64,000 bases of DNA, taken from the NCBI GenBank assembly GCA_014727835.1, contig WJMT01000104.1:1-64000 (forward strand). The letters are read 5' to 3'. The stretch comes from Candidatus Aminicenantota bacterium. GTDB lineage: Bacteria; Acidobacteriota; Aminicenantia; Aminicenantales; Aminicenantaceae. Below are positions 3,472 through 20,427 of the stretch, piece after piece. The first letter of the stretch is position 1. Every line of letters begins with the position of its first letter. A model generated the notes under the pieces. That model searched no databases, had not been told where the DNA came from, and saw nothing but the letters and a program-made list of their open reading frames with translations. The position numbers and the translations under genes were made by a program.

Positions 3472-3501
3472 TTTTTCTCCTGCTGATTTGGTCTCTGATT
3501 G

Positions 3502-3530
3502 TTGCAATTCTTCTGAAGAAAAAGTATAGT
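3502..3530 (+). promoter_or_regulatory. Sigma70-type promoter of second barrel gene
   Basis: TTGCAA (3502-3507), 17-bp spacer, TATAGT (3525-3530), 35 bp before ATG 3565. The layout is almost the same as that of the promoter of copy 3. Confidence 0.65.
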
Positions 3531-3545
3531 AAGCAGAAATTCATA

Positions 3546-3621
3546 CCAACAAATAGGAGGGAATATGAGCCAAAAAAAGTTATTAGGAAGTTTGGTTCTG
3601 GTCTGTTTTGTGTTTCTCATT
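3546..3621 (+). repeat. 5' leader and signal-peptide repeat, copy A
   Basis: These 76 bases, covering the ribosome binding site, start codon and first 18-19 codons of paralog 2, match 4633-4708 of paralog 3 with one mismatch (AGC versus ACC in codon 2). Paralog 1 is clearly different over the same stretch. Confidence 0.85.
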
Positions 3622-4551: not shown

Positions 4552-4588
4552 TGTTGTTTTGATTTTTTAATGAGTGTTGAGAAAAAAA

Positions 4589-4617
4589 TTGCAATATCTT
4601 TAAAAAAAAAGTATAAA
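4589..4617 (+). promoter_or_regulatory. Sigma70-type promoter of third barrel gene
   Basis: TTGCAA (4589-4594), 17-bp spacer, TATAAA (4612-4617), 35 bp before ATG 4652. Same geometry as the promoter at 3502-3530. Confidence 0.65.
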
Positions 4618-4632
4618 GAATTTGAATCCATT

Positions 4633-4708
4633 CCAACAAATAGGAGGGAATATGACCCAAAAAAAGTTATTAGGAAGTTTGGTTCTGGTCTGTTTTGTGT
4701 TTCTCATT
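4633..4708 (+). repeat. 5' leader and signal-peptide repeat, copy B
   Basis: Second copy of the 76-bp block at 3546-3621 (offset 1087 bp), one mismatch. Immediately after the block, paralog 3 becomes more like paralog 1 than paralog 2. Confidence 0.85.
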
Positions 4709-5634: not shown

Positions 5635-6768
5635 TCACAGGTTTGAAATCGACCCCTTGATCACGAACAGTAATTTGCCGATATCCTTTTTTCCTGCCTG
5701 ATCCGGCTGCTCAAACGCCAAAGGTTTGTCAATGAGGCCCCGTTCTGTGACGTATTCCATAAATTCCCACATCCACTCATGATAGGCCACCACAAAGGCC
5801 GATTCTTTGTCCGGAAAATTAAAATCTTTTTGAAGGGCTTCCAGATCCAGGTTCTGGTTCATGAAGCCCACGATCTTGGCTGCCGTGGACTGACAGAGCA
5901 GAAAGACAGGATCATCCGATTTCATCTCAATCACAGGAACGATCATGCGGCCCTGAGGATCGACAACTTCATAAGACAGCAGCCGGTCTAGAAGGTCTTG
6001 GTCAACGATCTTTCCATGCTGGTCCAGCTGTTCCTGCATGGAATATAGGTTATCCCAGTGAAAGATCTTCTGGATCTTTTCCTGGGGACCGTCGCTCCAG
6101 TTAAGCACCACCATTGTGTCCTTGCCTATGGCGATATTGGAACCGCCCCTAAAATTTCTCTTCGGACTGTAAGCCCAGTACACTCCGTCAAAAAGAGGCC
6201 TTTCCTCTGACAAAGAAAACTCACTGATCAATCCTTGAGCCCGGAAGGGAAACCAGACCAATCCATCCACCACACAGGAAAACAGCACACTGTAAACGTG
6301 GCCCGGATATCCCTGGTCTGTCAAAATTATTTTAAGCTTATGGATATCCTCTCTGAGGACAGGGTCGATGTCTTGAGCCAATTGGCGGAGATAGGGAATG
6401 AGCTTCTGCTTTTGTTCTGGACTGAGGATGGGCAGGGTTGTCTGAATGAATTCGTCTCTGCAGTCCACAAACCTCATGGCTTGGAGGAGCATAAGCTGGC
6501 TTTCCGTAAAATCGACATTCATGTCTCTCAATTCATTTCTGGTTTTGCTCTCCAAACAGGACAAAAGGATTTCCCAGTTGTTGTCTGCGCGGACTACCTG
6601 GTCAGGAGAGACAATCTCCTGTCCCCCGGAAAACCTCAGGAATTCATACTCATCCACATCCGCAGGATATGGCTGTTTGACAGCGCCCACTTCAGTTTTG
6701 GAACAGGAGGTTATCAATAACAAAAGCAAAACGAACAAAAAAAACAGCACATTAGCAAATCGCTTCAT
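5635..6768 (-). CDS. Unrecognised lipoprotein
   Basis: 377 residues. AGGAGG lies directly against an upstream ATG at 6774, so the second ATG at 6768 (six-base spacing) is the likely start. Lipoprotein signal: hydrophobic VLFFLFVLLLLLITSC with lipobox ITSC. The mature protein is mixed alpha/beta and acidic, with no motif I can tie to a family; it carries several Trp-rich segments (ADNNWEILLSC, YHEWMWEFMEYV). It sits 29 bp downstream of the exported hydrolase gene and should share its sigma54 promoter at 8430-8446. Possibly a periplasmic partner or accessory protein of that hydrolase; function unknown. Confidence 0.7.
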   Translation of the reverse strand: MKRFANVLFFLFVLLLLLITSCSKTEVGAVKQPYPADVDEYEFLRFSGGQEIVSPDQVVRADNNWEILLSCLESKTRNELRDMNVDFTESQLMLLQAMRFVDCRDEFIQTTLPILSPEQKQKLIPYLRQLAQDIDPVLREDIHKLKIILTDQGYPGHVYSVLFSCVVDGLVWFPFRAQGLISEFSLSEERPLFDGVYWAYSPKRNFRGGSNIAIGKDTMVVLNWSDGPQEKIQKIFHWDNLYSMQEQLDQHGKIVDQDLLDRLLSYEVVDPQGRMIVPVIEMKSDDPVFLLCQSTAAKIVGFMNQNLDLEALQKDFNFPDKESAFVVAYHEWMWEFMEYVTERGLIDKPLAFEQPDQAGKKDIGKLLFVIKGSISNL

Positions 6769-6797
6769 AATCATCCTCCTTTTTAATCAATCGGCTC

Positions 6798-8249
6798 CTA
6801 CAGTTTATCACCATCCTCATGCGAACTCACCTTCTTTTTGATTTGTTCCAATACATTTTGATAGGGCTGGGATTCCCTGAGTCCCTCAAAATAGGGACTG
6901 TTCTGGACAGCGGATGCATCATTAAAGCCTTTTTTTACAGCCAGCTCTAAATAATGAACCGCGGTTTGTTTGTCGCTGTTCAGGGCATAAGCCTGTGCCA
7001 AATCAAACAGGACCCGCTTGTGTACAGATTCATTTCCTTCGCTGGCCTTTGAGGCAATCTGAAACAAAACCACAGCTTTCAGGGGATGATTGTTTTTCAA
7101 GTGCTGGTTTCCGGTTTGAACAGCCCTATTAAATATAAGGTGAAGGAGGCGCACAGCCAGGCTCTGCTCTTCCACTTGATTTTGGGCCTGCGCCTCCTCT
7201 TGAAGGGATTCCAGTTTCATTTTTGCAAACAAAGCCTCAAAGTCAATGCAATCTTGAGGGGATTGTTCTATTCGGTTAAAAACACTTCCGCAGATGCTGA
7301 CGATCTCGGTTTCCCTCTGGATCCGCTCATTTTCCCTTTGGGCAAACTGCTTGTATTCGTCTCTTTGCTGCAGGAGGTTTATTTTTTCTTTGATTTCCGA
7401 AGTGTCTTTCAGACCCCTGAAAAGGGATGAGATGGTTTGATATCTTAAAACCGCCCAGTAAATTTTCCCCTGTTCTTCAAGGTCTTGGGCCCTCTGCCTC
7501 TTTTTGGCATAGATCCGTTCTGTTTTTTCTCTATCTTCAGGAACAATGTACTGCTTCATCCTCATGATTTCCATCCACTCCCATGCTGAGAGGCACACAT
7601 CAGAAGGAGGCCAGGCATGGGTTCCCTCAAAATAATGAATGTGATGAGTGACCTTGGCCTGGTTCAGCCTGATATCCAGCATGATCATTTCTCTGTAATT
7701 GAAGTCAGCGAACCCAACCGCTCCATAATAGATCGAGGGGTTTATCTCTTCAGGATTGAATTGAGACGGGAGTCCAGCGCCGCAGCCAATAACACCGGTC
7801 ACCGGATGGTTTGCGGCTTGAGAAAACAGAACCGCTGCCCGGGCCCCACCGGAAAAACCAGTGACATAGATGCTGTTGGAATCTATAGAAAAACGGCTTT
7901 GGGTGTCATCCCACATGATCTGTACGGCCTGGAAAATGTCTTCCCACGGGCCGTTTCGAAAATTATTGGAGCCCACAACTAGGAAGCCGTGTTTTTTCGC
8001 TGCTTCTTTGAAATGCTCCACAGGCACATACCCTCTGGCTGAAGGGTCCAGCGCATACAGAATGGGCCAGGATTTCTCCGGTGTGTATTCTTGGGGCAGA
8101 TACAGGGCATAACTGTGAGAGGGGAAGTGCTGGCACAACACCTTGCTGATAACAGTCCCTCTTTCAAAATCTGTTTGTGAGTGCAGATTACCTCCCCAAA
8201 TGAGAACCACCAGGAACACAGCCTTCATTCGAATACATTTATTTCTCAT
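6798..8249 (-). CDS. Exported alpha/beta-hydrolase with C-terminal helical repeats
   Basis: 483 residues from ATG 8249, chosen because AAGGGA lies about eight bases upstream. A signal peptide (VFLVVLIWGGNLHSQ) is followed by an alpha/beta-hydrolase domain like those of secreted feruloyl-esterase or PHB-depolymerase relatives: nucleophile elbow GFSGGAR (Ser133), probable acid Asp182 in the GFADF segment and His211 in EGTHAWPPSD. From about residue 230 the chain is helical with charged coiled segments and TPR-like repeats (for example LAQAYALNSDKQTAVHYLEL). Substrate unknown. First full gene of a sigma54-controlled operon with the lipoprotein at 5635; a tiny ORF (8313-8381) lies between promoter and gene. 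Confidence 0.8.
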   Translation of the reverse strand: MRNKCIRMKAVFLVVLIWGGNLHSQTDFERGTVISKVLCQHFPSHSYALYLPQEYTPEKSWPILYALDPSARGYVPVEHFKEAAKKHGFLVVGSNNFRNGPWEDIFQAVQIMWDDTQSRFSIDSNSIYVTGFSGGARAAVLFSQAANHPVTGVIGCGAGLPSQFNPEEINPSIYYGAVGFADFNYREMIMLDIRLNQAKVTHHIHYFEGTHAWPPSDVCLSAWEWMEIMRMKQYIVPEDREKTERIYAKKRQRAQDLEEQGKIYWAVLRYQTISSLFRGLKDTSEIKEKINLLQQRDEYKQFAQRENERIQRETEIVSICGSVFNRIEQSPQDCIDFEALFAKMKLESLQEEAQAQNQVEEQSLAVRLLHLIFNRAVQTGNQHLKNNHPLKAVVLFQIASKASEGNESVHKRVLFDLAQAYALNSDKQTAVHYLELAVKKGFNDASAVQNSPYFEGLRESQPYQNVLEQIKKKVSSHEDGDKL

Positions 8250-8312
8250 TTTTGTTCCCTTTTGTGTTTTTGAAAAATCGATTTCTCTTGCATCATTCTT
8301 TGACTTCAATCA

Positions 8313-8381
8313 TCAGCTGGTTGTGAGGGGACTCCATTCCGCCCCAATCCTTACAGGAACAACTGTAAAATTGTGTTTCAT
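8313..8381 (-). CDS. Possible 22-residue leader ORF
   Basis: A strong AGGAGGGATGAAATG arrangement precedes an ORF of 22 codons (begins MKHNFTVVPV, ends SPLTTS) and a TGA at 8313-8315. It lies about 50 bp downstream of the sigma54 -12 element and 63 bp upstream of the hydrolase start. It has no signal peptide or membrane segment. It may be a regulatory leader peptide, a very small protein or chance; the well-placed ribosome binding site is the only positive evidence. Confidence 0.35.
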   Translation of the reverse strand: MKHNFTVVPVRIGAEWSPLTTS

Positions 8382-8429: not shown

Positions 8430-8446
8430 AGCATGATTCATGCCAG
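8430..8446 (-). promoter_or_regulatory. Sigma54 (-24/-12) promoter of hydrolase-lipoprotein operon
   Basis: On the minus strand TGGCATGAATCATGCT: GG at 8444-8443 and GC at 8432-8431 with exactly 10 bases between, matching the RpoN consensus TGGCAC-N5-TTGC. A TGTAAA-N5-TTTACA palindrome lies about 105 bp upstream (8529-8545). Confidence 0.8.
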
Positions 8447-8528
8447 TTTTGAAAACTTTTTTTCCCTGGGGGAAAAACAGGGATGGACTCCGGTTTTCAC
8501 CGCAGTCATTCTGTAAAATTTGAAAAGC

Positions 8529-8545
8529 TGTAAAATAAATTTACA
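8529..8545 (-). promoter_or_regulatory. Probable enhancer (UAS) palindrome 1
   Basis: Perfect inverted repeat TGTAAA-N5-TTTACA; centre 105.5 bp upstream of the -12 element at 8431. Same sequence and spacing as the sites at 13062-13078 and 17627-17643. It is the best candidate for the binding site of an NtrC-family activator, probably the one encoded at 17645. Confidence 0.75.
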
Positions 8546-8567
8546 TCCGCAAAAAGAATTTTTTTAT

Positions 8568-9536
8568 TTATTCCAACATGATTAACTGAACAGCTGACCG
8601 AGAGCAGTGATAAGAACAGAGTCCGCATCCAAAGCAGTGATCCTTCCAGATTGCAATCTCCTCCTCTTGGAAAGAGATGGCTCCGAACAGACACTTCTCC
8701 GCGCATAATCCACACCTGTCGCAGAGTTCTGTATTGATTCGGGCGGTGAATCCGGACCGGCCCATGGATGTGGCTATTCCGAGTTTTTTCAGTCCCTGGA
8801 CAAACACGCAGCAGCACTCACAGCAGTTACACAAATACTCTGGTGTCTCCACGTTATTTATGGCATGGACCAGATCATGTTCCTGAGCTGTATCCAGGAC
8901 CTCAAGAGCCCTCTGAACACTTATCTCCTTTCCTATATTCCGGGAGATGAAAAACTCAGCTTTGTCATTCAAAGAAAGACAGACCTCCAGCGGCCTGCAG
9001 CAGTTTTGGAAAGTGGAGCGGCAAAGGCATTGGACCACTGCGATCTTCGGGGAGGCCTGCACATAGTTACGCGCCTGATGATAAGGGATGAGCTGTCTTT
9101 TGTCTTCAATGGCAACCTCAACGGGAAGGACCCTGTACACAGGTTTTTCGCTCTCCTGCATCTCTTTTTTTGCCCGTTCCATCACACATTCCTGTATAAC
9201 CGACAGATCATTCAAGGACAATTGAGAAAATTCAGAACTGTGAATGATGAATCTTTTGAGGATGCCTTCTAGGCTGCAGCTTGAATAGAATTTTTTTCCA
9301 TCTATGACCTGTCTAAACAAATAACCTTTTTCAAAACAAGATACAAGGATTGTTGCCGGCAAATCAGTGAACCTCAAGAAAACCTCCCGGGCTCTGACCT
9401 TTTTGTCAGCAAGATAGCTGAGAAGGACCGTTTCGTGTTCAGAGAGGATTTTGGGAATGATCTTATGGAGCTTCTCGGGAACTCCAAATTTTTTTATAAA
9501 TGATTGAAGAACCGGGTCGCTCTGGTCTTGACTCAT
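8568..9536 (-). CDS. 4Fe-4S dicluster binding protein with N-terminal winged-helix-like region
   Basis: 322 residues, cytoplasmic (no signal). The C-terminus holds two ferredoxin motifs, CDRCGLCAEKC (from residue 272) and CFGCGLCSYHC (from 301), sufficient for two [4Fe-4S] clusters. A separate Cys-rich centre, CLCRSTFQNCC...EVC and CNCCECCC, matches a family of 4Fe-4S proteins widespread in anaerobes whose redox role is not defined. Residues 1-110 resemble a small helical winged-helix domain (SEHETVLLSYLADKKVRAREV). Last gene of the operon that begins at 12923, 61 bp after the CPBP gene. The presence of a low-potential Fe-S protein suggests an anaerobic host. Confidence 0.8.
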   Translation of the reverse strand: MSQDQSDPVLQSFIKKFGVPEKLHKIIPKILSEHETVLLSYLADKKVRAREVFLRFTDLPATILVSCFEKGYLFRQVIDGKKFYSSCSLEGILKRFIIHSSEFSQLSLNDLSVIQECVMERAKKEMQESEKPVYRVLPVEVAIEDKRQLIPYHQARNYVQASPKIAVVQCLCRSTFQNCCRPLEVCLSLNDKAEFFISRNIGKEISVQRALEVLDTAQEHDLVHAINNVETPEYLCNCCECCCVFVQGLKKLGIATSMGRSGFTARINTELCDRCGLCAEKCLFGAISFQEEEIAIWKDHCFGCGLCSYHCSRSAVQLIMLE

Positions 9537-9597
9537 TTCATCATCACCAATAAGGGAACATTTGCATCATATCAAACATGCCTGGATTTGCCTAAAA

Positions 9598-10374
9598 TCA
9601 ACCGGAGGCAAATCTGACAAACTTTTCGCGGCTGAAAACAATAAACACCAGAATGAGACTGAGAATCAGTCCTATGGAAGTTATGATTGTTATCTCATTG
9701 AGATGAGCCTTGATCATCTCCTCTTTGATCACAGCATCCATGGACCCGGCGATGAAAAAATGATAGGAAATGCAGGCCCATAAGTTTCCCTTGGTCTTGT
9801 AGAAAATAAAGCCGAAGGGAAATGACATCACAAGTCCGGCGGTTACTGAAATCATGATTTCATTGATATTGTGCCCTATAATGAGATTAGCTAGGTGGGC
9901 AGGGCCAAAAAACAATCCTGTGATCAAGGCAGCTGTGTACCATTTTGTAGCCGATGAAAGTCTGTTGAATAAAACCCCTCTGAAAAGGCCTTCTTCAAAT
10001 AAGCCGGGCCCGATCAATGCCAGAAAGATCATAACAATGGAATTCCATGAAAAATGGATGGGAACTTTATAAATCACACATCCTATTATCCAGGATAGGA
10101 TAAAAGGCAAAGAAGCAGCCAATCCCGATAGGAAGGGCTTCATGAATTTCTTCTTAAAACCTAAAAAAGGAAATATTTTAGGTACATTTCCTGTGTAAAA
10201 GATCACAACTCCGGAAAACAACACAGTCAATCGGATCAGATAAACAAACAATCCATCCGCAAAACTTCTCACAGCCGGAAACATATCTCTGAATAAAAAA
10301 TTAAATCCGGTTATGGCTACCAGATAAATGATTAAGGAAACCCAAAGTGCTTTGATGATGTGTTTTGTTTTCAT
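9598..10374 (-). CDS. CPBP-family intramembrane metalloprotease
   Basis: 258 residues, about seven predicted transmembrane segments. The conserved glutamic motif is intact: GLFEEGLFRG (Glu127, Glu128, Arg132), and the following helix has FFGPAHLANL (His160), as in CPBP/Abi proteases related to Rce1. Such proteins cleave membrane-embedded or prenylated substrates in eukaryotes; bacterial substrates are mostly unknown. The start lies 4 bp after the stop of the upstream unknown gene, so the two are translationally close and cotranscribed in the sigma54 operon that begins at 12923. One of three CPBP proteins in 6 kb. Confidence 0.88.
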   Translation of the reverse strand: MKTKHIIKALWVSLIIYLVAITGFNFLFRDMFPAVRSFADGLFVYLIRLTVLFSGVVIFYTGNVPKIFPFLGFKKKFMKPFLSGLAASLPFILSWIIGCVIYKVPIHFSWNSIVMIFLALIGPGLFEEGLFRGVLFNRLSSATKWYTAALITGLFFGPAHLANLIIGHNINEIMISVTAGLVMSFPFGFIFYKTKGNLWACISYHFFIAGSMDAVIKEEMIKAHLNEITIITSIGLILSLILVFIVFSREKFVRFASG

Positions 10375-10378
10375 GGTC

Positions 10379-11470
10379 TTATCTCCACTTTGTATTTGGC
10401 AAGACTTCCTCCTCTATAAATAGGTTCCACACTTTTCCTGAAGCCGACAGATCGTTCTCCATTCCCCAGAATCCCTTTAGCTGGACCAGAGAAGCCAGAA
10501 GAAACACCATCTTATTATTTTCTCTGTAAAGACAGCCTGCAAATCTGTAGGACTGTTCACTTGTTTGGTCCTCTCGCGTCATTCTGAAGGTATAAGTTCC
10601 CTCGCCTCGGATGCCATTTTGTTGTTTTCTAATCTCATTTAACCGGAATTCAGTGATCCGGCTTTGGACAGAGCCCTCGCTTATGGATTCAGATTGGGTT
10701 ATCTCTTCCAGAAACTGCCGGAACAGAGTTTCTGATACTTTGTCCTCACTCTGTTTCCAGTGAAGTTCTATGTGCTTTTCAGAATCAGTAAGGAGGGTCC
10801 ACAAAGATCCTCTGTGTTTTGTGATTCCATCCGGGTACCATTCCTTATACAGGAACGGTTTGGTTTTCCAGTTTGACGGCTTAAAAAAAGATATGCTCCA
10901 TTCGGGAGAATGGTATACAGAGGTAAGCCTCTCATCTAAATCTTTTTTATGGGATTGATGACAGGACACAGCGGCTGTGATTTCCTCCTGCAGGTCCAAA
11001 AACTCCTGCCGGGTTCCTTTTCTCACATTGATGTTGCAGTCAGCTGTGAACTGGCGGCTGGTTTCAGGGCAGTTCCACACAATGAATCGGGTGCGGACCG
11101 CTCCATTGTAAATGGTGCCTTGGGTATAAAATCCCTTATGACCGCAGATCTCGATTTCTCCTTCTTGTCCTGTGAGTTCGAAATCCATGTTCTCTCCCCA
11201 AAAATTCAGCAGATGATGCCGGACATATTCCAGGGATATATCTTTGTTTTTCTCTGTTAAAGGCCTCCAGTGCAGAAAATACATCAGCCATTTTGAACTG
11301 TGGAGCTTGATGAAGCCGTCTGTGCCCTGAGATTCATCATACACTTCCCATCCCGGATCCATTCTCTTTAATCCGTTAAGATCGATAGAATCCGTTTTGA
11401 CTAGAAAAGAGCCAAAAATTATGGGTCCCAAAAAAAGAAAAAGAAATAAAAAAGCTGTTTTTCTGCTCAT
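10379..11470 (-). CDS. Unrecognised exported protein
   Basis: 363 residues. N-terminal hydrophobic stretch (KTAFLFLFLFLGPIIFGSFLV) looks like a signal peptide or single anchor. The rest is a soluble mixed protein with two similar-looking halves, each containing a 'Trp-Ser-Ile/Phe-Lys... Trp' pattern (SSKWLMYFLHWRPL, SPEWSISFFKPSNW) and a segment dealing with an EGxYxxxG-like strand (GHKGFYTQGTIYNG, GIRGEGTYTFRM), suggesting an internal duplication. No known family recognised. Located between the rhodanese/methylase gene (61 bp upstream) and the CPBP protease gene (4 bp downstream) in a sigma54 operon. Confidence 0.65.
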   Translation of the reverse strand: MSRKTAFLFLFLFLGPIIFGSFLVKTDSIDLNGLKRMDPGWEVYDESQGTDGFIKLHSSKWLMYFLHWRPLTEKNKDISLEYVRHHLLNFWGENMDFELTGQEGEIEICGHKGFYTQGTIYNGAVRTRFIVWNCPETSRQFTADCNINVRKGTRQEFLDLQEEITAAVSCHQSHKKDLDERLTSVYHSPEWSISFFKPSNWKTKPFLYKEWYPDGITKHRGSLWTLLTDSEKHIELHWKQSEDKVSETLFRQFLEEITQSESISEGSVQSRITEFRLNEIRKQQNGIRGEGTYTFRMTREDQTSEQSYRFAGCLYRENNKMVFLLASLVQLKGFWGMENDLSASGKVWNLFIEEEVLPNTKWR

Positions 11471-11531
11471 TCTCTGTTACTCCTGAATTTATTCAAACGA
11501 GAACTCTTGAGGACATTAACATATTTGCCCT

Positions 11532-12923
11532 CTATCTCAGTGCTGATTCATAGGGTTTCCCTTCAAGAAAATCACCAATGAACAGCAGTCCCATGTATTT
11601 TTCTTTTTCATCCATCAATTTATCCCCCATATCTGCAATGGTCCCCCGGACTACTTTTTGTTTCTCAGGGTACCCGGCCCAGAAGATTACAGCACAGGGC
11701 ATATCTTCCGGAAAAATTTTTCCTAAAACTGAAAAAAGTCTTTCCGGGTTCCCCAATGCCATGTACAAAACCAAGTTTGGCTGGTATTTTGACAAATCTT
11801 TGAGAATCTGCAAATCCTGCATACCGGGCCCTAACATGAGCATGGGAGAGCTTTGAACAACCATACGGGCATCAAATGCAGGAATCACACTCTTTCCCAA
11901 AACTGCCATGGCTGCGGCATCACTGCTCATTCCCGGGATAATCACTACATCCTGAGAATCAAATTGTTCACTGTACATTTGGCTGGGACCAAAGAGACAA
12001 GGATTCCCATTGTCCAGCAGCCCCACATCTTTTCCCTTCTCAAGCAGTCTCTTGATTTCATCGATCCTTTTTTCCCTGATGCGGAAGCGCTCTATCCTGA
12101 ATTTTCCCATTTCTTCTTTGGCCAGACGGTGCAGATTTTTTCCCTTATAATCAAACAATCCTTTCCAGGGATCAAATAGAATGGTTTTATTCTTTATATA
12201 ATCCTTGAATAATTCCGCATGTTCATTTGATGCAGCAATGAAATCCATTTTTTTCATGGTTTCTAAGGCTTGAACAGTGGACATCAGAGGCCCGGCCGGA
12301 CCTGTGCCAATAACAAACAGTTGCCCTCTTTTTTTTGATTCCATATTCTCTTCAAACTTGATACTCTGATGGATTTCTTGCCACTCCTGCCATCCTCCCT
12401 TAAAACGAAGAACCTTTTTATACCCTAAAGTCACAGCCCATCGGGCTGCAAGGGGACTTCTGGTGCAGTCTGGCCGTCTGCAGTAAAAAATAACTTCTTC
12501 GTTTCTATTCTGAGGCAGGCGGCTGAGAAGCTCCGCTAATTTGCTTTGAGGCATGTATTCTTCACCTGATGAACTGTCTATCAAAACAAAGTCCATATCC
12601 CTGCTTTGATTTCTGATAATTTCTTCCAATTCCGCCTCAACTCTTGTCCCAGGGCCAAATCCGTATGAATCTATGGAAACATTTACAGCTCCCGGAATAT
12701 GACCGGCTTTGTACTCTTCCGGAGGTCTGCAGTCAATCAAAGTGAATCCATCATGACGGGTGATCTTTTCACGCATTTTCTGGGCACTGATCAATCCATA
12801 GCTGATATGAGATTCTGGATGTCCGCTGGTTTTTATATAAGATACATTGAGGACATTGGAATGGCCCCTCAAAAATAGAAAGGAAAAAAGGACCATCATG
12901 ATAATGGCAAAAAGTCTTTTCAT
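11532..12923 (-). CDS. Exported rhodanese - tetrapyrrole methylase-like fusion
   Basis: 463 residues. Signal peptide or anchor at 2-20 (KRLFAIIMMVLFSFLFLRG). Residues 45-185 are a rhodanese domain: DCRPPEEYKAGHIPGAVNV and the active-site loop FYCRRPDCTRSP (Cys148), a loop longer than the classic CxxGxR. Residues 200-450 resemble the tetrapyrrole (corrin/porphyrin) methylase fold: GTGPAGPLMSTVQAL near 206, a 'GLLDNGNPCLFGP' segment and 'VVIIPGMSSDAAAMAVLGK'. This fold normally uses cytosolic S-adenosylmethionine, so an export signal is odd. First gene of the operon running to 8568, with its own sigma54 promoter 35 bp upstream and GGAG before the ATG. Domain identities are fairly sure; the reaction is unknown. 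Confidence 0.78.
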   Translation of the reverse strand: MKRLFAIIMMVLFSFLFLRGHSNVLNVSYIKTSGHPESHISYGLISAQKMREKITRHDGFTLIDCRPPEEYKAGHIPGAVNVSIDSYGFGPGTRVEAELEEIIRNQSRDMDFVLIDSSSGEEYMPQSKLAELLSRLPQNRNEEVIFYCRRPDCTRSPLAARWAVTLGYKKVLRFKGGWQEWQEIHQSIKFEENMESKKRGQLFVIGTGPAGPLMSTVQALETMKKMDFIAASNEHAELFKDYIKNKTILFDPWKGLFDYKGKNLHRLAKEEMGKFRIERFRIREKRIDEIKRLLEKGKDVGLLDNGNPCLFGPSQMYSEQFDSQDVVIIPGMSSDAAAMAVLGKSVIPAFDARMVVQSSPMLMLGPGMQDLQILKDLSKYQPNLVLYMALGNPERLFSVLGKIFPEDMPCAVIFWAGYPEKQKVVRGTIADMGDKLMDEKEKYMGLLFIGDFLEGKPYESALR

Positions 12924-12957
12924 GATCGTTTCTCCATTTTGGTTATTCCTAAATTCA

Positions 12958-12975
12958 TTGCAGGATTCATGCCAA
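12958..12975 (-). promoter_or_regulatory. Sigma54 (-24/-12) promoter of rhodanese-methylase operon
   Basis: Minus strand TTGGCATGAATCCTGCAA: GG at 12973-12972, GC at 12961-12960, 10 bases between. Predicted transcript start near 12949, about 26 bases before ATG 12923. Palindrome at 13062-13078 is the presumed activator site. Confidence 0.82.
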
Positions 12976-13061
12976 TCCTATGGGATATTTAATGGTTCAG
13001 GGATAGAGAGATGGATTGCATAGAATATCACCAAACATTGAACAGCAATAAGCTGACATGC

Positions 13062-13078
13062 TGTAAAATTCATTTACA
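13062..13078 (-). promoter_or_regulatory. Probable enhancer (UAS) palindrome 2
   Basis: Perfect TGTAAA-N5-TTTACA; centre 109.5 bp upstream of the -12 element at 12960. Apart from this site and the sigma54 promoter, the 430-bp gap between 12924 and 13353 shows only AT-rich sequence and the ribosome binding site of the + strand CPBP gene. Confidence 0.78.
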
Positions 13079-13353
13079 TAAGAATTGAATATAACAACCT
13101 GGATTATTCATGAGTCAAGATTGCTTTGTCATGGCCAAGAACACAGTAACAAATCCATCTCATTAAGCTTAGTCCGAAGCAGACAAAGATATCACTTGCC
13201 TATAGAACCCGCCTAAAATTTTTCAGACCATCCAGTGAATTGTTTCAACCCGGGATAAACCTAAAATGAATAATTTTCGTAGAACTTCTTAAACAGGAAG
13301 ATAATGCAAAATAATTTTTTTTCGTCTTAGTGAATACAAAAAAGGAGGACCGT

Positions 13354-14067
13354 ATGTATCAAAGCAGACCGGACAACAATCAAAGTCAATTAATATGGTT
13401 GTTTTTCCTTGTTCTATCATGGTTCGCTATCACCCTACTTACTCCTTCCATAAACAAACTCTATGACTTTCACTCAATAAATCCTTGGATATTAGCCTAT
13501 ATCCGCATGGCTCTTATGCTGGCAGTCTCTTGGATCTATATCCACATCCGTGAGAAACAATCCTTTTTTCAAGGATTCAACATCTCATTCAAAAACTTTA
13601 GTCGAAATCTTTTCTGGGCAGTGGTATTTTTCGCTGCTGCTTATCTTGTGGAAAAACTCTACAACTTACTTATAATGAAACCTCTGATTCCTGAAATGTT
13701 TACCGCCTCATCAAGCGGAGGAAAAGCTGTAACTCATTCTTTAGGAGAACGTTTGTTTGAGTATTTTTATATTGTTTTTGAAGGGGTAGTGGAAGTCTTT
13801 GTGTTTATTGGTGTGCTGGTCGACCGGCTGGCAAAAAGGTGGGGATGGACGATGTCTATTATCACTGGAAATATCATCTTTGCTCTTTGGCACTACTCCT
13901 ATTGGCGAATGGGATGGCTTCCCGGAACCGTACTGATTGTTTTGACCTTCATCATGGGTTTCGTCATTTCGCTCAATTATATGAAAACAAAGAACACGCT
14001 CAGTTCTGCTCTTTGTCATATATTCGTTGATTCTCCATCTGCTATCAAAATCCTGTTAGGAAAATAG
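13354..14067 (+). CDS. CPBP-like membrane protein with degenerate catalytic motif
   Basis: 237 residues. AAGGAGGA just upstream selects ATG 13354 over an in-frame GTG at 13330. Several transmembrane helices and the general CPBP order are visible, but the usual EExxxR motif reads EVFVFIG (Glu147 then Val148, no Arg), while the second-helix His survives (FALWH, His180). The protein is therefore probably proteolytically inactive, or an old divergent member. It is the only + strand gene within the 5.6-22 kb minus-strand block, and its 3' end overlaps the antisense tail of a broken hydrolase gene by 52 bp. Confidence 0.7.
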   Translation: MYQSRPDNNQSQLIWLFFLVLSWFAITLLTPSINKLYDFHSINPWILAYIRMALMLAVSWIYIHIREKQSFFQGFNISFKNFSRNLFWAVVFFAAAYLVEKLYNLLIMKPLIPEMFTASSSGGKAVTHSLGERLFEYFYIVFEGVVEVFVFIGVLVDRLAKRWGWTMSIITGNIIFALWHYSYWRMGWLPGTVLIVLTFIMGFVISLNYMKTKNTLSSALCHIFVDSPSAIKILLGK

Positions 14068-14669
14068 ACGCTAGAGACGAACTTGTTAAAAGAGTCAGAA
14101 ATCCCAGCCCACACCACTGCAGCCTTGATTTTTTTGGTTTTCGTCAGGGCGATGTACGTCATCATTCCACCCCTGCTCACTCCGTACATCCCAATTCTGG
14201 ATGTATCGGCTTTGTTTACATACCCTAAGGCAGGAATCAGATTAACCACATCGTTGATATCAGCGCCTCCGTATTCATCCTTTCCCTCACTACCAACACT
14301 TCCTCTATACTGGCTGCAAATAATGACATAACCTTTGCTTGATAGAAGCGCTAGAAGAAAAAACAAGAGCTTGTCATCAATTTTTCCAAGTTCTCCAAAT
14401 CCCCCACGGTTAAAGATAATACATGGATATTTGCCCTCTTTTTTAGGGACAACGAGGAAGCCTTTGATTTTCAATCCATCGCTCAAATAAGTCATCTGAA
14501 AAATCTCTACTTTCTCTAAATACTGAAATTCAGATTTGAATCTTCGTCTGTCATTCATTTTTTCAGTTACTTTAGAATAATATGGAGAGTTTGAGATATC
14601 AGTGATTTTTTCTCTCTTAATAATCTCTCCATTTTGACCAAAGAGAGCTTGATAGAATAGGTGAAACAA
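14016..14669 (-). pseudogene. Truncated alpha/beta-hydrolase (prolyl-oligopeptidase-like) remnant
   Basis: The frame contains an alpha/beta-hydrolase core: PKKEGKYPCIIFNRGG, the oxyanion-region CSQYRGSVGSEGKDEYGG and the nucleophile elbow GMYGVSRGG, as in S9-type hydrolases. About 20-25 residues after AAVVWAGISD it runs antisense through the end of the CPBP gene (stop at 14016), so the acid/His part is missing. The 5' end has only a TTG at 14669 with no ribosome binding site, though the frame upstream (back to a TAA at 14696) is hydrophobic, like a damaged signal peptide. Both ends thus look lost. Follows the CPBP gene at 14697 closely. Confidence 0.7.
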
Positions 14670-14696
14670 TATAAAATGAAAAATTGGGGAAATTTA

Positions 14697-15695
14697 TTAC
14701 CTTGGGTCAGGGATCCTTTTTCTGATAAAGGAAAGCCCCAGAAACAAAGCCCCTAAAACCGCATAAACCACTAGGCGGATGCTGGATCCGTATCGATCCG
14801 TGAAAACACTCCGTCCCCAGGCAATGAGGAACACCAGCAGTCCCAGCAGGAATCCAACTACGGTGTAGAGAATTCCTGACTCTGAAAACATCTGTTTAGT
14901 TTTGGTCCACAGCTCTTTAAGCTCTGTTCTTCCCACAAAGCAAAAACCCAACAAGATAAGTCCCAGCCCAAAGGCGGTCACATAAGAAAGGGCTACGTAT
15001 CCTTTGGCAAACACAAACGGTGCGTATACTGGAATGACATTAGCCAGAGTGTGGGTGGTCATGGCTGCAAGAAGACTGCCTGTAGCATAGTAGATGAGAC
15101 AGAACACAGCCCCGCTTATCAGAACATTCAAAATCATCACCACGTTGTAATCAGGATGAGAGAAGTGATGGGTCAGACCGAACGGGATAAACGAAATGAA
15201 AAAACCCACAGCCGGAGCGATTTTCCGGCTGAACAGACCCTGGATATAACCCCGGTACCATATTTCTTCATGCCAGGCACCGGTGACAAACCCAAAAATG
15301 AGGCTCGTCAAGGTCATGATCACTAAGAGAAGGGGCAGTGGCATATCCGGAAACATACCTAAATTTTTGGAGATGGAATCCGCGTAAACAGAAATATTGG
15401 CGACTTCAAGAGGAAGAAGCACAATATAAAGCACACAAAATCCAATGAAACCAAACCAGATGTCCTTACCCCAGCTTCGATGGATGCGGAATCCCAGATC
15501 TTTAAGGGTCCAATTATCTTTCAGTCTTCTCACTGCATAAACCACCACAGCGATCACCACTCCTCGAGACAACCAGTAAGCTAAATTAGTGAGCAGGTTT
15601 TCCAATCCCAGAAATCGGTGAAGCAGAATCCCGAATATAGCTATAATAAAAGAAACTCCCAAATACTCAGAAAACACCACAGCTGTTTTTTTCAT
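14697..15695 (-). CDS. CPBP-family intramembrane metalloprotease
   Basis: 332 residues with about eight transmembrane helices. The active-site motifs are intact: AWHEEIWYRGY (Glu143, Glu144, Arg148), FGLTHHFSH (His176) and TTHTLANVIP. Larger than the 258-residue CPBP protein at 9598 because of an additional C-terminal pair of helices. Its start lies 22 bp after the PD40 lipoprotein stop, making it the last intact gene of the operon that begins with the receiver gene at 17487; a hydrolase remnant follows. Substrate unknown. Confidence 0.87.
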   Translation of the reverse strand: MKKTAVVFSEYLGVSFIIAIFGILLHRFLGLENLLTNLAYWLSRGVVIAVVVYAVRRLKDNWTLKDLGFRIHRSWGKDIWFGFIGFCVLYIVLLPLEVANISVYADSISKNLGMFPDMPLPLLLVIMTLTSLIFGFVTGAWHEEIWYRGYIQGLFSRKIAPAVGFFISFIPFGLTHHFSHPDYNVVMILNVLISGAVFCLIYYATGSLLAAMTTHTLANVIPVYAPFVFAKGYVALSYVTAFGLGLILLGFCFVGRTELKELWTKTKQMFSESGILYTVVGFLLGLLVFLIAWGRSVFTDRYGSSIRLVVYAVLGALFLGLSFIRKRIPDPR

Positions 15696-15717
15696 TGAAC
15701 TCTCCTGTATGGTGATG

Positions 15718-16611
15718 TCATTTCAAAACTTTTTCAACCACCCAAATATCAGAATCTCCCAAGCTGCCTTCCCTATTGGAAGTGAAATAAAACTTGGAGC
15801 CATCCGGAGAAAGACAAGGATCATAATCATGTTGAGCGGATTGGAAAGGTCCATCCATTAGATGGGGACTGGTCCATTTGCTTTTAACCAGCTCAAACTT
15901 CCAGATATCCACATCTCTTTTGTTTTCATCTCCCCGAGCTGAATTCAAGTACAGGGTCTGACCATCAGGGGTGAGATAGGGAGTGGCTTCCCATTCTCCT
16001 GAGTTGACAGGCCATGGGATAGGTTTGGGTTCAGTCCATCCGCTGTTTTTTCGGGTAGACTGAAAAATCTGCACCATCTTCTCTTTGGCTGGTTCTCTTC
16101 CGCTTGAAAAAATCACTGTTTTGAAATCCTTGGGAATGGCAATTCCCCAATCCGGTTTTCCGGGAGTGCTGAACTTTTCATTAAAGATTTGAGGTTCGCC
16201 CCATTCATCTCCATCTTTGAAACTCAAATAAATATCGCAGTTCCAGTACTCACCCTGATTATCTCTGTTAGAAGCAAAGAACAACCTCTTTTCATCCAGA
16301 GTCACAAACACATCGAATTCATCTCTTTCTGTATTGACAGGAACAGGCAGAAGCTCCGCAGGAGTCCATTGTCCGCTTTCCAGTCTTGATACATAAATAT
16401 CATATTTTCCCATCCCTTCTTCTCTTATGGACGCAAAATACATGGTTTTTCCATCCTGGGTAAAGGTGACGTGTTCGTCCTTTCCTTTGGAATTGATGTT
16501 TGGGCCCAGATTTCTGAGATTTCCCCATTCGTACGGTTCGACTTTTTGAGTCTGACACCCGCTTAGGGTCACGATGAGAATAACAGCGGCAGATAAAAGA
16601 CCTCTTTTCAT
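15718..16611 (-). CDS. PD40/TolB-type beta-propeller lipoprotein
   Basis: 297 residues. Lipoprotein signal SAAVILIVTLSGC (lipobox LSGC). The mature part consists of four to five PD40 blades with the recurring pattern '..DG..(L/M)YF.S.R.....DI(Y/W)': DGKTMYFASIREEG, EKRLFFASNRDNQG, DGQTLYLNSARGDE, DGSKFYFTSNREGS. These propellers occur in TolB and in many periplasmic binding or scaffold proteins; no enzymatic motif is seen. It is separated from the Fis-type gene by a 93-bp gap holding a dispersed repeat. Likely in the same sigma54 operon, although the gap could also contain a promoter. Confidence 0.82.
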   Translation of the reverse strand: MKRGLLSAAVILIVTLSGCQTQKVEPYEWGNLRNLGPNINSKGKDEHVTFTQDGKTMYFASIREEGMGKYDIYVSRLESGQWTPAELLPVPVNTERDEFDVFVTLDEKRLFFASNRDNQGEYWNCDIYLSFKDGDEWGEPQIFNEKFSTPGKPDWGIAIPKDFKTVIFSSGREPAKEKMVQIFQSTRKNSGWTEPKPIPWPVNSGEWEATPYLTPDGQTLYLNSARGDENKRDVDIWKFELVKSKWTSPHLMDGPFQSAQHDYDPCLSPDGSKFYFTSNREGSLGDSDIWVVEKVLK

Positions 16612-16673
16612 GGCATTCTCTCCTATTTTATCAAATACTTCATAGGTTTTTTTCTGTTTTTCAAAATCACAAA

Positions 16674-16702
16674 AAATAGGTAAATGGGTATTGTGTCCCT
16701 GT
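16674..16702. repeat. Dispersed intergenic repeat, copy 1
   Basis: AAATAGG(G)TAAATGGGTATTGTGTCCC-type sequence shared with 27211-27241. Here it runs into a CCCTGT/ACAGGG hairpin (16697-16712) that includes the stop codon region of the Fis-type gene. Confidence 0.7.
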
Positions 16703-16704
16703 AT

Positions 16705-17067
16705 TTACAGGGAGTTTTTTTTGAATTGAATGCCGTGTCTTTTGATTTTTTCATTCAGAGTGCTGTGTTTGATTCCCAAAACCTGTGACGTGACTTTCTG
16801 ATTGCCGTTCATCTCTGAGAGAATTCTCACTAAAAGAGTTCTTTCTAAATGATCCATTAAATTACGGAACGGGATTCGGTTTTTCACACAAAAATGCTCT
16901 AAAAAGTTGATCAAAAAATCCTGTTTGGAAAGGCTGCTGCGTTCCTTCTTCTGTTTTTCCAGAAACTTTTTAAACAGCTTTTCGAATCTTTGGGCTTCTT
17001 GGTCTGGCTTGTTATTGCCAGCCAATTCCTGCTTCTTTTCATAAAATAATGATTCTCTCGGATTCAT
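16705..17067 (-). CDS. Small Fis-type helix-turn-helix protein
   Basis: 120 residues. The C-terminal 45 residues are a Fis-type (HTH_8) DNA-binding domain of the kind found at the end of NtrC-family activators: LERTLLVRILSEMNGNQKV followed by the recognition helix region GIKHSTLNEKIKRHG. The N-terminal 60 residues are charged and helical with no AAA+ module. It follows the single-domain receiver gene by 9 bp, so the pair looks like an NtrC regulator split in two with the ATPase missing. GGGGGG precedes the ATG. It may bind the same palindromes as the full regulator and compete or cooperate with it; this is inference. Confidence 0.8.
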   Translation of the reverse strand: MNPRESLFYEKKQELAGNNKPDQEAQRFEKLFKKFLEKQKKERSSLSKQDFLINFLEHFCVKNRIPFRNLMDHLERTLLVRILSEMNGNQKVTSQVLGIKHSTLNEKIKRHGIQFKKNSL

Positions 17068-17076
17068 GGTCCCCCC

Positions 17077-17487
17077 CTATCTCTGTTTTTTAACTGAATA
17101 TTCCCCGCTGCCTCTTGAATGACCTAAAAGATATTCTATGGACTGGGTTAGTGCTTCCAGTTCCAAAGGTTTCACAAAGAAGCAGTCCACAGCTGCTTGG
17201 TTCAATTCCTTTGGGTTGACCAAGTCTGGAAACGCTGAAATCAGGATGGCTTTACCTTTATACCCAGAGTCTCTAAATTTCTCCAGCATCTGTAATCCTG
17301 AATGTTGGGGCAACCTCATATCAGCGATGATGAGGTCAATATCCTCTCCCTGAAAACGCTTCAGGGCTTCATCTGAATCTTTAGCCGGATAAACCTTATA
17401 ATTTTCATGAAGAAGCAGGAAGAAAGTCTTTCGGATAGATTCATCGTCATCCACCACCACCACTTTCTTCTCATTGTTTTTTTTCAT
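17077..17487 (-). CDS. Single-domain response regulator (receiver)
   Basis: 136 residues from ATG 17487; AAGGAAC upstream sets this start. A complete receiver domain: acidic pair VVDDDES near 11-15, phospho-acceptor Asp56 in LIIADMRLP, the conserved Ser in AILISAFPD and Lys in CFFVKPLEL. No output domain. It heads an operon with the Fis-type protein and has its own sigma54 promoter, with the predicted transcript start 25-30 bases before the ATG. Likely phosphorylated by the kinase at 18976, acting as a phosphate sink, a partner of the Fis-type protein, or both. Confidence 0.88.
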   Translation of the reverse strand: MKKNNEKKVVVVDDDESIRKTFFLLLHENYKVYPAKDSDEALKRFQGEDIDLIIADMRLPQHSGLQMLEKFRDSGYKGKAILISAFPDLVNPKELNQAAVDCFFVKPLELEALTQSIEYLLGHSRGSGEYSVKKQR

Positions 17488-17523
17488 TTTTGTTCCTTTT
17501 TTCTGTATTCCAGATACTTCATA

Positions 17524-17541
17524 CAGCATATTTCATGCCAA
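17524..17541 (-). promoter_or_regulatory. Sigma54 (-24/-12) promoter of receiver operon
   Basis: Minus strand TTGGCATGAAATATGCTG: GG at 17539-17538, GC at 17527-17526, 10 bases between. Matches the two promoters at 8430 and 12958 at TGGCATGAA. Palindrome 108.5 bp upstream at 17627-17643. Confidence 0.82.
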
Positions 17542-17626
17542 TCATCTTAAGAAAAAGAATTTTAGAGGAAAATCAAACCAATGAATCAATGGTGAGAAAA
17601 AAGGCAAGCTAAATTAATTAACACAA

Positions 17627-17643
17627 CGTAAAAATCTTTTACA
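17627..17643 (-). promoter_or_regulatory. Probable enhancer (UAS) palindrome 3
   Basis: TGTAAA-N5-TTTACG on the minus strand, one mismatch from the other two sites. It lies immediately beyond the stop codon of the NtrC-family regulator gene. Confidence 0.72.
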
Positions 17644-17644
17644 C

Positions 17645-18979
17645 TCAGATTTGAATCTGATAATCACTTATTTTTTTATCCAGAGTGGGTCGGCTGATGC
17701 TCAGAATCCGGCTGGCCTTGCTTTTGTTACCTTTGACTTGTTTCAAAACATGCTGAATATATTTCTTTTCAACCTCAGCTAAAGGAACCAATTGTTTGGG
17801 AAATATCTCCTTATCACTTTTTTCTATGGGGAGGTTTTCTTTGAGAAGCACATCCCCTTTAGCTAAGATCACAGCTCTGGTCAAGGCATTTTCCAGTTCT
17901 CTGACATTTCCTTTCCATGGAAAATCGACCAAAAAATCCATCACACCCGGAGGGACTTTTTTCACGTTTTTTCTCAGTTCCCTGTTTATCTTTTCCAAAA
18001 GATAAGCCACCAGATCAGGGATGTCCTCTTTTCTTTGACAAAGAGAAGGCAGATTGATCTCCACTACCTTTAGCCGGTAGTAGAGGTCTTCCCTGAATTT
18101 TCCCTGTTCGACCCGCTCTTTCAAGTCATGATTGGTGGCTGCAATGACTCTGGCTTCTGTTTGCAGTACTTTTTCACCTCCGACTTTCATATAGTCTCTG
18201 TTCTCAATCACCCTCAATAATTTGGACTGAAGGTTCAATGACACATCCCCGATTTCATCCAGAAAAAGTGTGCCTTTGCCAGCAACCTCAAATTTGCCCT
18301 TTGTCTCATGAGCCGCATCAGTAAAAGCCCCCTTGACATGACCGAACAATTCGCTTTCCAGCAGGGTGTCAGAAAGAGCCGAACAGTTGATAACAATGAA
18401 AGGTTCATCCCTGAAGCGGCTGTTGTAATGGATGGCTTTGGCCACCAGTTCCTTTCCTGTTCCGCTTTCGCCCTGAATCAACACATTGGCCCGTGTATTG
18501 GCTACAGAACCGATGAGTTTGTACACTTCTCTCATTTCCGGTGTGCTGCCGATGATATTGTCAATGGTGTATTCCTTCTGCTTCTCCCCTACCAGATAGC
18601 TCATTTTGTCTTCCAAGCTCTTTACTTTGTAGACTTTGCCGATCACCAGGTCCAGCTCCACATAATCCAGAGGTTTGACCAGATATTCAAATGCTCCTGA
18701 TTTGACAGCTTCCACTGTGGTTTTCATGTCATCAAAGGCCGTCATGATGATGATGCAGGCTCGAGGATTTTCCTTTTTGATTTTTTTCAGGACTTCCAAA
18801 CCATCCACATCCGGAAGGCGGATATCCAGAAGGACCAAATCCGGACGGTTTTCTTTGAATTCGCTGATCCCTGACTCACCGTCTGCTGCAGAAAAAACTT
18901 GAAACTCATTTTTTCGGAAGTGGGATGACAGGCTTTTTCGGATGAGTTTGTCATCGTCAATAATGAGAACAGATTTCAT
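17645..18979 (-). CDS. Sigma54-dependent NtrC-family response regulator
   Basis: 444 residues, full three-domain activator. Receiver 1-120 with phospho-acceptor Asp52 (LVLLDIRLP). AAA+ domain with Walker A GESGTGKE (170-177), the sigma54 contact loop GAFTDA (217-222, a known variant of GAFTGA) and Walker B GTLFLDEIGD. C-terminal Fis-type helix-turn-helix (VKGNKSKASRILSISRPTLD). It should bind palindromic enhancers and drive open-complex formation by RpoN polymerase. Its start overlaps the kinase stop by 4 bp, so kinase and regulator are a cognate pair. The three sigma54 promoters with a common palindrome directly downstream make it their likely activator. Confidence 0.95.
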   Translation of the reverse strand: MKSVLIIDDDKLIRKSLSSHFRKNEFQVFSAADGESGISEFKENRPDLVLLDIRLPDVDGLEVLKKIKKENPRACIIIMTAFDDMKTTVEAVKSGAFEYLVKPLDYVELDLVIGKVYKVKSLEDKMSYLVGEKQKEYTIDNIIGSTPEMREVYKLIGSVANTRANVLIQGESGTGKELVAKAIHYNSRFRDEPFIVINCSALSDTLLESELFGHVKGAFTDAAHETKGKFEVAGKGTLFLDEIGDVSLNLQSKLLRVIENRDYMKVGGEKVLQTEARVIAATNHDLKERVEQGKFREDLYYRLKVVEINLPSLCQRKEDIPDLVAYLLEKINRELRKNVKKVPPGVMDFLVDFPWKGNVRELENALTRAVILAKGDVLLKENLPIEKSDKEIFPKQLVPLAEVEKKYIQHVLKQVKGNKSKASRILSISRPTLDKKISDYQIQI

Positions 18980-20427
18980 TTGTCTCCCTCCACAGGCAGA
19001 ATGATTTCAAAACAAGCTCCCCCCTCTTCGCTCTCTTTGACTCTGATAGATCCCTGGTGCTGCTCAATGATTTTCTGGGCATTGGCCAAGCCTAAGCCGA
19101 TTCCAGAAGACTTGGTGGTGTAAAAAGGTTCGAAAATATTTTCTCTTTCTTGGTTTGGGATTCCGCTGCCGTTATCCATAACTTCCATTTTTACAGCATT
19201 TTTTTCACCCTCTTTTAAAAGAGTTGCTGAAATCTGAATCCGGCCTCCTTTATCCACAGCTTCTAGGGCGTTTCTCAAAAGATTGAGGATCACCTGCCTG
19301 ATCTTATCTCCATCCACATAAAGTGAGGGAAGGTTTTCCTGGAAATCTGTGCGCAGCTTAATTTTTTTCTCTTCTAGGGAATCTGAAATCATTTTAACAG
19401 ACTCCTCTATGATCTCCTGGATAGAGAACCTCTCCATATTGAGCTCAGAGATCCGAGTGAAATCCAAGAGCTCTTTGATGAATTTTTCAATATGTCCGAT
19501 CCCTTCTTGAGAAAGATCCAAGTGCTCTCTTTCCAGTTCCTCCAGTTTATCACTCTGGAGGACTTTTTGGATATTCAGATTGGCGGAAGTGAGAGGATTT
19601 CTGATCTCATGGGCGATGCTGGCTGAAATCCTGCCTATGGAAGCCAGCTTTTCTGCCTGGATGAGCTTCTTGTTCGCAACTTCCATCCTTTTTTTGGCTA
19701 GAAGAAGCTGACGGCTCATTTCATTGAAACTCTCAGCCAACTGCCTGATTTCATCCTGGGAGCTGACTTTGATCTTTTTTGAGAAATCACCCCTTGAAAT
19801 CCGAACCGTCCCATCCACCAGTTTTTTAATGGGGCCCGCAATCCGGTTGGAGAGAAACACCGCTCCGCCAATACCAACCAAAAGTCCTCCCAATCCAATA
19901 AGGATCAGCATAAACCGGGTCTGCTTGATTTCCTTCTGCATATCTTCCAAAGACAGCCCAATTTTTATGGAACCCCATTTGGTGGAAGAACCTCTGGTGA
20001 AAACCGGGACTTCGATTTCCAACACTGATATGAGATTTTTGTTGTCATTATATTGGATTTCTTTGGTCTGGAAAAAATAAGTATTCTCATCAACCGGGCC
20101 CTTTAGATGGGAGACCTTAAAGATTTGTTCGTATTTTTCAGCAAAATCACTGGCTGCAAATGGCCGGTTGTACTGGTCAAAAAAAGCCACATACAACAGT
20201 TTTTGATCAATGTTTTCCTGGATATTCCGTTCCACTCCTTCCGCATCCCAAAACATAAACGGTTCCAGATTCAAATATGCAATGTTCTTAGCAGTTAAAA
20301 CTCCTTTGCTCTTCTGCTCCTCAAATATCGCTTTTTCCTCTCTTCTTTCAATCAGAAAGAGCATGGCTGCCACTAGGAAAAAGAGCAGAATCATTATGGC
20401 TGTTATGAATTTAGCTCTCAGAGACAT
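18976..20427 (-). CDS. Membrane sensor histidine kinase (HAMP, HisKA, HATPase)
   Basis: 483 residues. TM1 at about 9-25, periplasmic sensor 26-170, TM2 172-193, HAMP to about 248, then HisKA with phospho-acceptor His273 (SIAHEIRNPLT), N-box NLLRNALEAV and G-boxes MDNGSGIP and GIGLGLANA. The periplasmic part is all-round compatible with a small Cache/PAS-like sensor, not identified further. Overlaps the regulator gene by 4 bp and follows the peptide-binding-protein gene by 25 bp, so the binding protein may present a ligand to it. Likely phosphorylates the NtrC-type regulator and possibly the separate receiver at 17077. Confidence 0.93.
   Translation of the reverse strand: MSLRAKFITAIMILLFFLVAAMLFLIERREEKAIFEEQKSKGVLTAKNIAYLNLEPFMFWDAEGVERNIQENIDQKLLYVAFFDQYNRPFAASDFAEKYEQIFKVSHLKGPVDENTYFFQTKEIQYNDNKNLISVLEIEVPVFTRGSSTKWGSIKIGLSLEDMQKEIKQTRFMLILIGLGGLLVGIGGAVFLSNRIAGPIKKLVDGTVRISRGDFSKKIKVSSQDEIRQLAESFNEMSRQLLLAKKRMEVANKKLIQAEKLASIGRISASIAHEIRNPLTSANLNIQKVLQSDKLEELEREHLDLSQEGIGHIEKFIKELLDFTRISELNMERFSIQEIIEESVKMISDSLEEKKIKLRTDFQENLPSLYVDGDKIRQVILNLLRNALEAVDKGGRIQISATLLKEGEKNAVKMEVMDNGSGIPNQERENIFEPFYTTKSSGIGLGLANAQKIIEQHQGSIRVKESEEGGACFEIILPVEGDK

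Follow-up and report, generated by a model that had tools for sequence, protein, structure and literature searches.

Three minus-strand operons that lie close together on contig WJMT01000104.1 of a Candidatus Aminicenantes bacterium (Acidobacteriota; assembly GCA_014727835.1) are each preceded by the same -24/-12 promoter and the same palindrome, and the genes for an NtrC-type regulator and a sensor histidine kinase are encoded right behind them. This raises the question of whether the palindromes are the operators of this regulator, and what such a switch would respond to. The stretch analyzed (positions 1 to 64,000 of the contig, 64,000 nucleotides; hereafter the window) belongs to a 3.1-Mb metagenome-assembled genome, 92% complete, from a lineage of uncultured Aminicenantes bacteria of soil and sediment. 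The answer we consider likely, including the mechanism set out below, is a lineage-specific two-component sigma54 regulon of the order Aminicenantales, in which the sensor-regulator pair very probably switches on three neighboring gene sets via one 17-base site.

The window contains three minus-strand -24/-12 elements of the form TGGCATGAA-N3-TGC, each with 10 bases separating GG from GC and with zero mismatches to TGGCATGAANNNTGC. Each has a copy of the palindrome TGTAAA-N5-TTTACA upstream:

8431-8445, minus strand: -24/-12 promoter 1, TGGCATGAATCATGC, gap to palindrome 83 bp
12960-12974, minus strand: -24/-12 promoter 2, TGGCATGAATCCTGC, gap to palindrome 87 bp
17526-17540, minus strand: -24/-12 promoter 3, TGGCATGAAATATGC, gap to palindrome 86 bp
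8529-8545, minus strand: palindrome 1, TGTAAATTTATTTTACA, perfect
13062-13078, minus strand: palindrome 2, TGTAAATGAATTTTACA, perfect
17627-17643, minus strand: palindrome 3, TGTAAAAGATTTTTACG, one mismatch, directly after the regulator gene, a position occupied in many relatives too

A first-pass annotation of this DNA had claimed three such elements with the exact 10-base spacing, two perfect palindromes and one with a single mismatch, and distances of 105.5, 109.5, and 108.5 bp from the palindrome centers to the GC; re-reading of the coordinates bore out all of these. A GG-N10-GC element with an enhancer ∼80-150 bp upstream, the distance range described for sigma54 regulons (PMC4987338), is found at all three promoters.

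How specific this combination is was addressed by pattern searches of the whole genome, in which strand coverage of the gapped pattern was confirmed with the reversed pattern. The three pairs of palindrome and promoter observed in the window compare with none in 200 dinucleotide shuffles of it. A relaxed pair pattern matched the genome at exactly three places, all in the window and within 9 kb of one another (reversed control, 0), and with this pattern no such palindrome was found at any other -24/-12 promoter of the genome. Perfect palindromes occur twice in the genome, both times inside the window; the many unlinked copies that the first-pass annotation had named as an argument against a regulon are not there. 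Palindromes with up to one mismatch do not exceed the background (15 vs 15 in the control), and the promoter word with up to one mismatch occurs 32 times (0 in the control). Because the promoter word alone is frequent, the pairing, and not the promoter word, is the specific feature. The sigma54 gene rpoN, which had been left to be looked for, is present in the genome (Sigma54_DBD, 4e-60, contig C113).

The genes behind palindrome 3 would supply the switch itself. Domains here and below were called by Pfam and NCBIfam profile searches of the window proteins:

17645-18979, minus strand: NtrC-family sigma54 activator with receiver, AAA+, and Fis-type helix-turn-helix (HTH) domains (Pfam PF00072, PF00158, PF02954, above cut-off)
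18976-20427, minus strand: membrane sensor histidine kinase with two transmembrane helices, periplasmic Cache/PAS-like sensor, HAMP, HisKA, and HATPase_c (Pfam)
20453-22045, minus strand: family-5 extracellular solute-binding protein (SBP) with signal peptide, first gene of the SBP-kinase-regulator operon (Pfam SBP_bac_5, 2e-60)

The first-pass annotation was right about the regulator and its kinase, but overlooked the SBP as a third partner. Of 94 genomes of the order, 82 encode an orthologue of the regulator (69-78% identity, one copy per genome). Its named relatives come from Candidatus Aminicenantes genomes, Saccharicenans among them; elsewhere the best match has 45% identity, and in a sample of 199 genomes from across the phylum no orthologue occurred outside the class Aminicenantia. 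Against the NCBIfam equivalogs ZraR (393 of 760 bits), AtoC (466 of 714), NtrC (429 of 559), and PrsR (391 of 503), it always scored below the cut-off. The SBP has dipeptide- and oligopeptide-binding proteins as its nearest solved chains. Its gene precedes the kinase gene in nearly all of 43 orthologous neighborhoods, and the two share an operon in the window too; the profile search of the window proteins found no permease gene adjoining it.

Conservation was followed in the 94 genomes of the order and, around the regulator gene, in the 43 orthologous loci plus the window. A footprint scan of the latter set, on both strands and for palindromes with up to two mismatches paired with a -24/-12 element, returned 64 pairs; 40 permuted palindromes of equal composition gave 0.55 on average and at most 6. 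The pairs cluster at two homologous places, namely before the SBP gene (65-195 bp before the SBP match) and directly after the regulator gene, ahead of a receiver gene; the arrangement that the first-pass annotation had suggested seeking in related genomes does recur there. When hexamer inverted repeats before the SBP gene were counted without bias, TGTAAA with spacer 5 ranked top (23 of 39 loci); the runner-up (6 loci) overlaps TGTAAA-N5-TTTACA, and the best repeat inside the kinase genes reached 2. The pair itself precedes the SBP gene at 26 of these 39 loci, and the palindrome alone at 3 more. Over the 94 genomes, the perfect pair pattern has 42 places in 32 genomes and none when reversed. 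About 25 of the 42 precede the SBP operon (by position and downstream open reading frame [ORF]), 6-7 an exported M1-peptidase-like gene, 3 a MerR-like gene, and the others single genes. Sites on the SBP side are nearly perfect and single, several of those on the receiver side are tandem, 20 bp apart, and the palindrome-promoter spacings are grouped near 60, 71, and 81 bp, with intervals of roughly one helical turn.

Both GAFTDA, a variant of the GAFTGA-type loop, and RPTLD in the recognition helix are invariant in 42 of 42 regulator orthologues, and much of the remaining HTH varies. A fixed helix together with a fixed site is the pattern expected of a regulator and its own operator. On the basis of this phylogenetic footprinting, we propose the regulator encoded at 17645-18979 as the predicted binder of the palindromes.

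The following mechanism is consistent with these observations. The periplasmic family-5 SBP, probably with a peptide-like ligand, and/or the Cache-type domain of the kinase would control the histidine kinase, which would phosphorylate the NtrC-type regulator. The regulator would then oligomerize on the TGTAAA-N5-TTTACA sites ∼70-110 bp upstream of the -12 element and open the Esigma54 promoters (TGGCAYR-N5-TGC) through DNA looping and ATP hydrolysis. Its targets in most relatives would be the operon that encodes it together with SBP and kinase, and the receiver(-Fis) operon that follows; in the genome studied here, the predicted regulon comprises the receiver/Fis operon and two neighboring operons, most of whose products are exported. 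Feedback is the probable role of the receiver and the Fis-like protein, which may act by withdrawing phosphate or by competing for DNA. A contact between SBP and kinase is suggested by their shared operon, and analogy with known systems suggests that the SBP serves as sensor input. A more far-reaching reading is possible, and is put forward tentatively: an order-wide peptide-sensing switch, in which an SBP without nearby importer genes would be a dedicated sensor subunit of the kinase, and in which regulator and 17-bp site would stay fixed and the targets, here even autoregulation, would be rewired between species.

The predicted targets in the window are the following:

6798-8309, minus strand: alpha/beta-hydrolase-like exported protein with a TPR end, operon 1 (NCBIfam TPR_END_plus above cut-off; depolymerase model weak)
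5635-6774, minus strand: putative lipoprotein, operon 1 (no Pfam or NCBIfam match; lipobox-like LITSC read in the sequence)
11532-12923, minus strand: fusion of rhodanese and tetrapyrrole methylase with signal peptide, operon 2 (Pfam PF00581, PF00590)
10379-11470, minus strand: exported protein, operon 2 (no Pfam or NCBIfam match)
9598-10374, minus strand: CPBP/Rce1-like membrane protease, operon 2 (Pfam PF02517, 8e-17)
8568-9536, minus strand: 4Fe-4S protein, operon 2 (Pfam Fer4 above cut-off)
17077-17487, minus strand: stand-alone receiver protein (Pfam Response_reg, 7e-19; conserved neighbor in 29 loci)
16705-17067, minus strand: small Fis-type HTH protein (Pfam HTH_8, 8e-5; conserved neighbor in 8 loci)
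15718-16611, minus strand: exported PD40 beta-propeller protein, operon 3 (Pfam PD40, 6e-30)
14697-15695, minus strand: CPBP/Rce1-like membrane protease, operon 3 (Pfam PF02517, 1.5e-14)
14016-14669, minus strand: alpha/beta hydrolase of S9/S15 type, operon 3 (Pfam PF02129, 1.8e-13)

Two gene starts deserve comment. That of the receiver gene was corrected to the ATG at 17487 behind AAAAAAGGAAC, as a start at 17529 is impossible because it overlaps promoter 3. The 503-residue hydrolase most likely starts at an ATG near 8249 rather than at the TTG at 8309; in the leader between promoter 1 and this gene, a short ORF (MKHNFTVVPVRIGAEWSPLTTS; minus strand, ∼8316-8381) follows a strong AGGAGG site and is a possible leader peptide. 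Farther on, three tandem paralogous exported beta-rich proteins of 316-328 residues are encoded at 2521-5587 (no Pfam family for the one tested), which look like a recent duplication. Methylases of the tetrapyrrole-methylase fold are normally cytoplasmic. For the rhodanese/methylase fusion, part-length homologues were found in only two other genomes of the 94, and neither fetched locus carries such a site. One of the two is a stand-alone methylase (genome G006, locus L237, ∼1480-2330; 63% identity) that also opens with a signal-peptide-like stretch, which makes it seem genuine that a protein of this fold is exported.

One further candidate site lies elsewhere in the same genome. On contig C103 (11525-11561; locus L234), tandem near-palindromes 20 bp apart sit between a CarboxypepD_reg/TonB-plug gene and a nitroreductase-like gene, the latter with homologues in the receiver operons of certain relatives. 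It was not counted as a fourth site, the nearest -24/-12 element being 198-218 bp off and outside the usual range; the locus is nevertheless a possible fourth member of the regulon.

Set beside its relatives, this genome differs at the core of the system. Upstream of its SBP operon, a reading of the sequence revealed no palindrome and no good -24/-12 element, unlike in most relatives; it has lost the usual site before its SBP-kinase-regulator operon. The two perfect sites of this genome precede operons of little-conserved genes. Judged by these comparisons, the core of regulator and site is old and the outer targets are recent, which speaks against a fixed function in "envelope modification." The first-pass annotation had proposed just such a function for one self-contained sigma54 regulon under the adjacent NtrC-type regulator. 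The single regulon is supported by rpoN, by pairs unique in the genome, and by their co-occurrence with the orthologous regulator. Its self-containment holds insofar as all three pairs lie so close together, but not for the kinase-regulator operon, which has no site here, nor for relatives, in which pairs also stand at distant genes, for example of M1 peptidases. Envelope modification is not supported in the form proposed, as the neighbors of the core vary by genome and the fusion has its two homologues at loci lacking the site. The lasting theme is instead a peptide-type SBP with peptidases.

Genes that recur near the switch in relatives encode a membrane dipeptidase (M19), a transglutaminase-like protein, an ARMT1-like phosphatase, DUF362, a class-V aminotransferase, CapC/Mur-ligase-type (PgsB/C-like) proteins, and an M24 peptidase. 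They would fit peptide sensing or use better than envelope modification, though this is no proof. Downstream of the regulator operon, several Aminicenantales (six loci and others) carry Mur-ligase/CapC/PgsW-like genes, a hint of poly-gamma-glutamate synthesis near the switch. In several genera, the palindrome-promoter pair also recurs at a distant gene for an exported protein of ∼870 residues with an M1-peptidase domain (two copies tested; six loci).

The alternative that survives best, although we regard it as rather unlikely, is an envelope-stress system of the ZraPSR type. In that case the kinase itself would detect damage to the envelope, the regulon would serve envelope repair or modification, and the SBP would be one of the targets and not the sensor. 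The nearest solved structure of the kinase core is indeed ZraS, and the AlphaFold model of its sensor (pLDDT 85) matches the extracytoplasmic Cache/PAS domains of WalK/YycG, the nearest fold, and DctB. The targets in the window are mostly exported and include CPBP proteases, and ZraR offers a precedent in activating divergent sigma54 promoters, one for zraSR and one for the gene of a periplasmic protein (PMC4987338). However, the regulator reaches only 393 of the 760 bits demanded by the ZraR model, the periplasmic partner is a peptide-type SBP and not a ZraP-like chaperone, and the frequent neighbors (M19 dipeptidase, transglutaminase-like protein, M24/M1 peptidases) vary from genome to genome.

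Quite improbable, in our judgment, is that the sites are owned by another sigma54 activator or DNA-binding protein, such as the Fis-like protein encoded at 16705, and that the kinase-regulator pair is merely adjacent. Each genome holds many NtrC-type candidates at first look, and the Fis-like protein carries an HTH of the regulator's class. Yet, order-wide, the pairs are found ahead of the orthologous SBP-kinase-regulator operon and immediately behind its regulator gene, the recognition helix of the regulator does not vary, and the Fis-like protein is clustered in 8 loci only, far below the number carrying sites. That AT-rich intergenic inverted repeats resemble a common motif by chance has next to no probability: the promoter word is frequent and near-palindromes are as many as in the control, but the absence of pairs from shuffles and reversed controls and their recurrence at two homologous places, that is, conservation throughout the order, refute it.

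Several observations nevertheless weigh against the regulon proposed here. The peripheral targets are poorly conserved and differ between genomes, and the pair before the SBP operon is missing in this genome and in about one quarter of the others. Sites at the receiver promoter are weaker, often with only the left half kept, and the gaps of 86-87 bp in the window fall outside the three spacing groups. As the genomes compared are akin, counts of pairs and loci are not independent events. Finally, the genome encodes other sigma54 activators, among which a paralogue with the same specificity is possible.

Very little is known of how Aminicenantes regulate their genes; searches of the literature yielded neither work on regulons of this group nor a paper with the exact TGTAAA-N5-TTTACA motif. 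The single-copy regulator, its invariant helix, and a fully predicted 17-bp site open a regulon to direct testing across an entire order of uncultured bacteria, and make the Aminicenantales a natural series in which to study how targets change under a fixed regulator and a constant site.

Among known systems, AatJ-AauS-AauR of Pseudomonas likewise combines an SBP, a kinase with a periplasmic sensor, and a response regulator. There, the SBP is needed for full signaling via kinase and regulator, which act on the SBP promoter, and an SBP-kinase complex has been proposed; AauR activates that promoter through the inverted repeat TTCGG-N4-CCGAA, and one lineage has recruited it to control further genes (PMC7386598). 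However, AatJ is part of a full ABC importer (aatJQMP), whereas the Aminicenantes SBP has no permease nearby in the window, and SBP family, DNA site, and targets are unlike. With ZraPSR of enterobacteria, the system would share a sigma54 regulator acting on its own operon and on a periplasmic partner (PMC4987338; PMC7657598), but this partner is here an SBP instead of a zinc chaperone, and the autoregulatory site is lost in the present genome. NtrC/NtrB resembles it in the receiver-AAA+-Fis HTH architecture of the regulator and in palindromic enhancers ∼100 bp upstream. The half-site spacing of NtrC, 6-5-6, equals that of the Aminicenantes site; its half-site, in contrast, is TGCACC and not TGTAAA, the Aminicenantes kinase is membrane-bound, and the regulator scores 429 bits where the NtrC model asks for 558.6. 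WalK (YycG) and YycH share the extracytoplasmic sensor fold and set a precedent for control by a separate extracytoplasmic protein, but WalK signals to an OmpR-type regulator and YycH is not an SBP. The NtrC-type sigma54 regulon is of a known type; specific to its lineage, it is well supported and real, and its order-wide operator is a new prediction.

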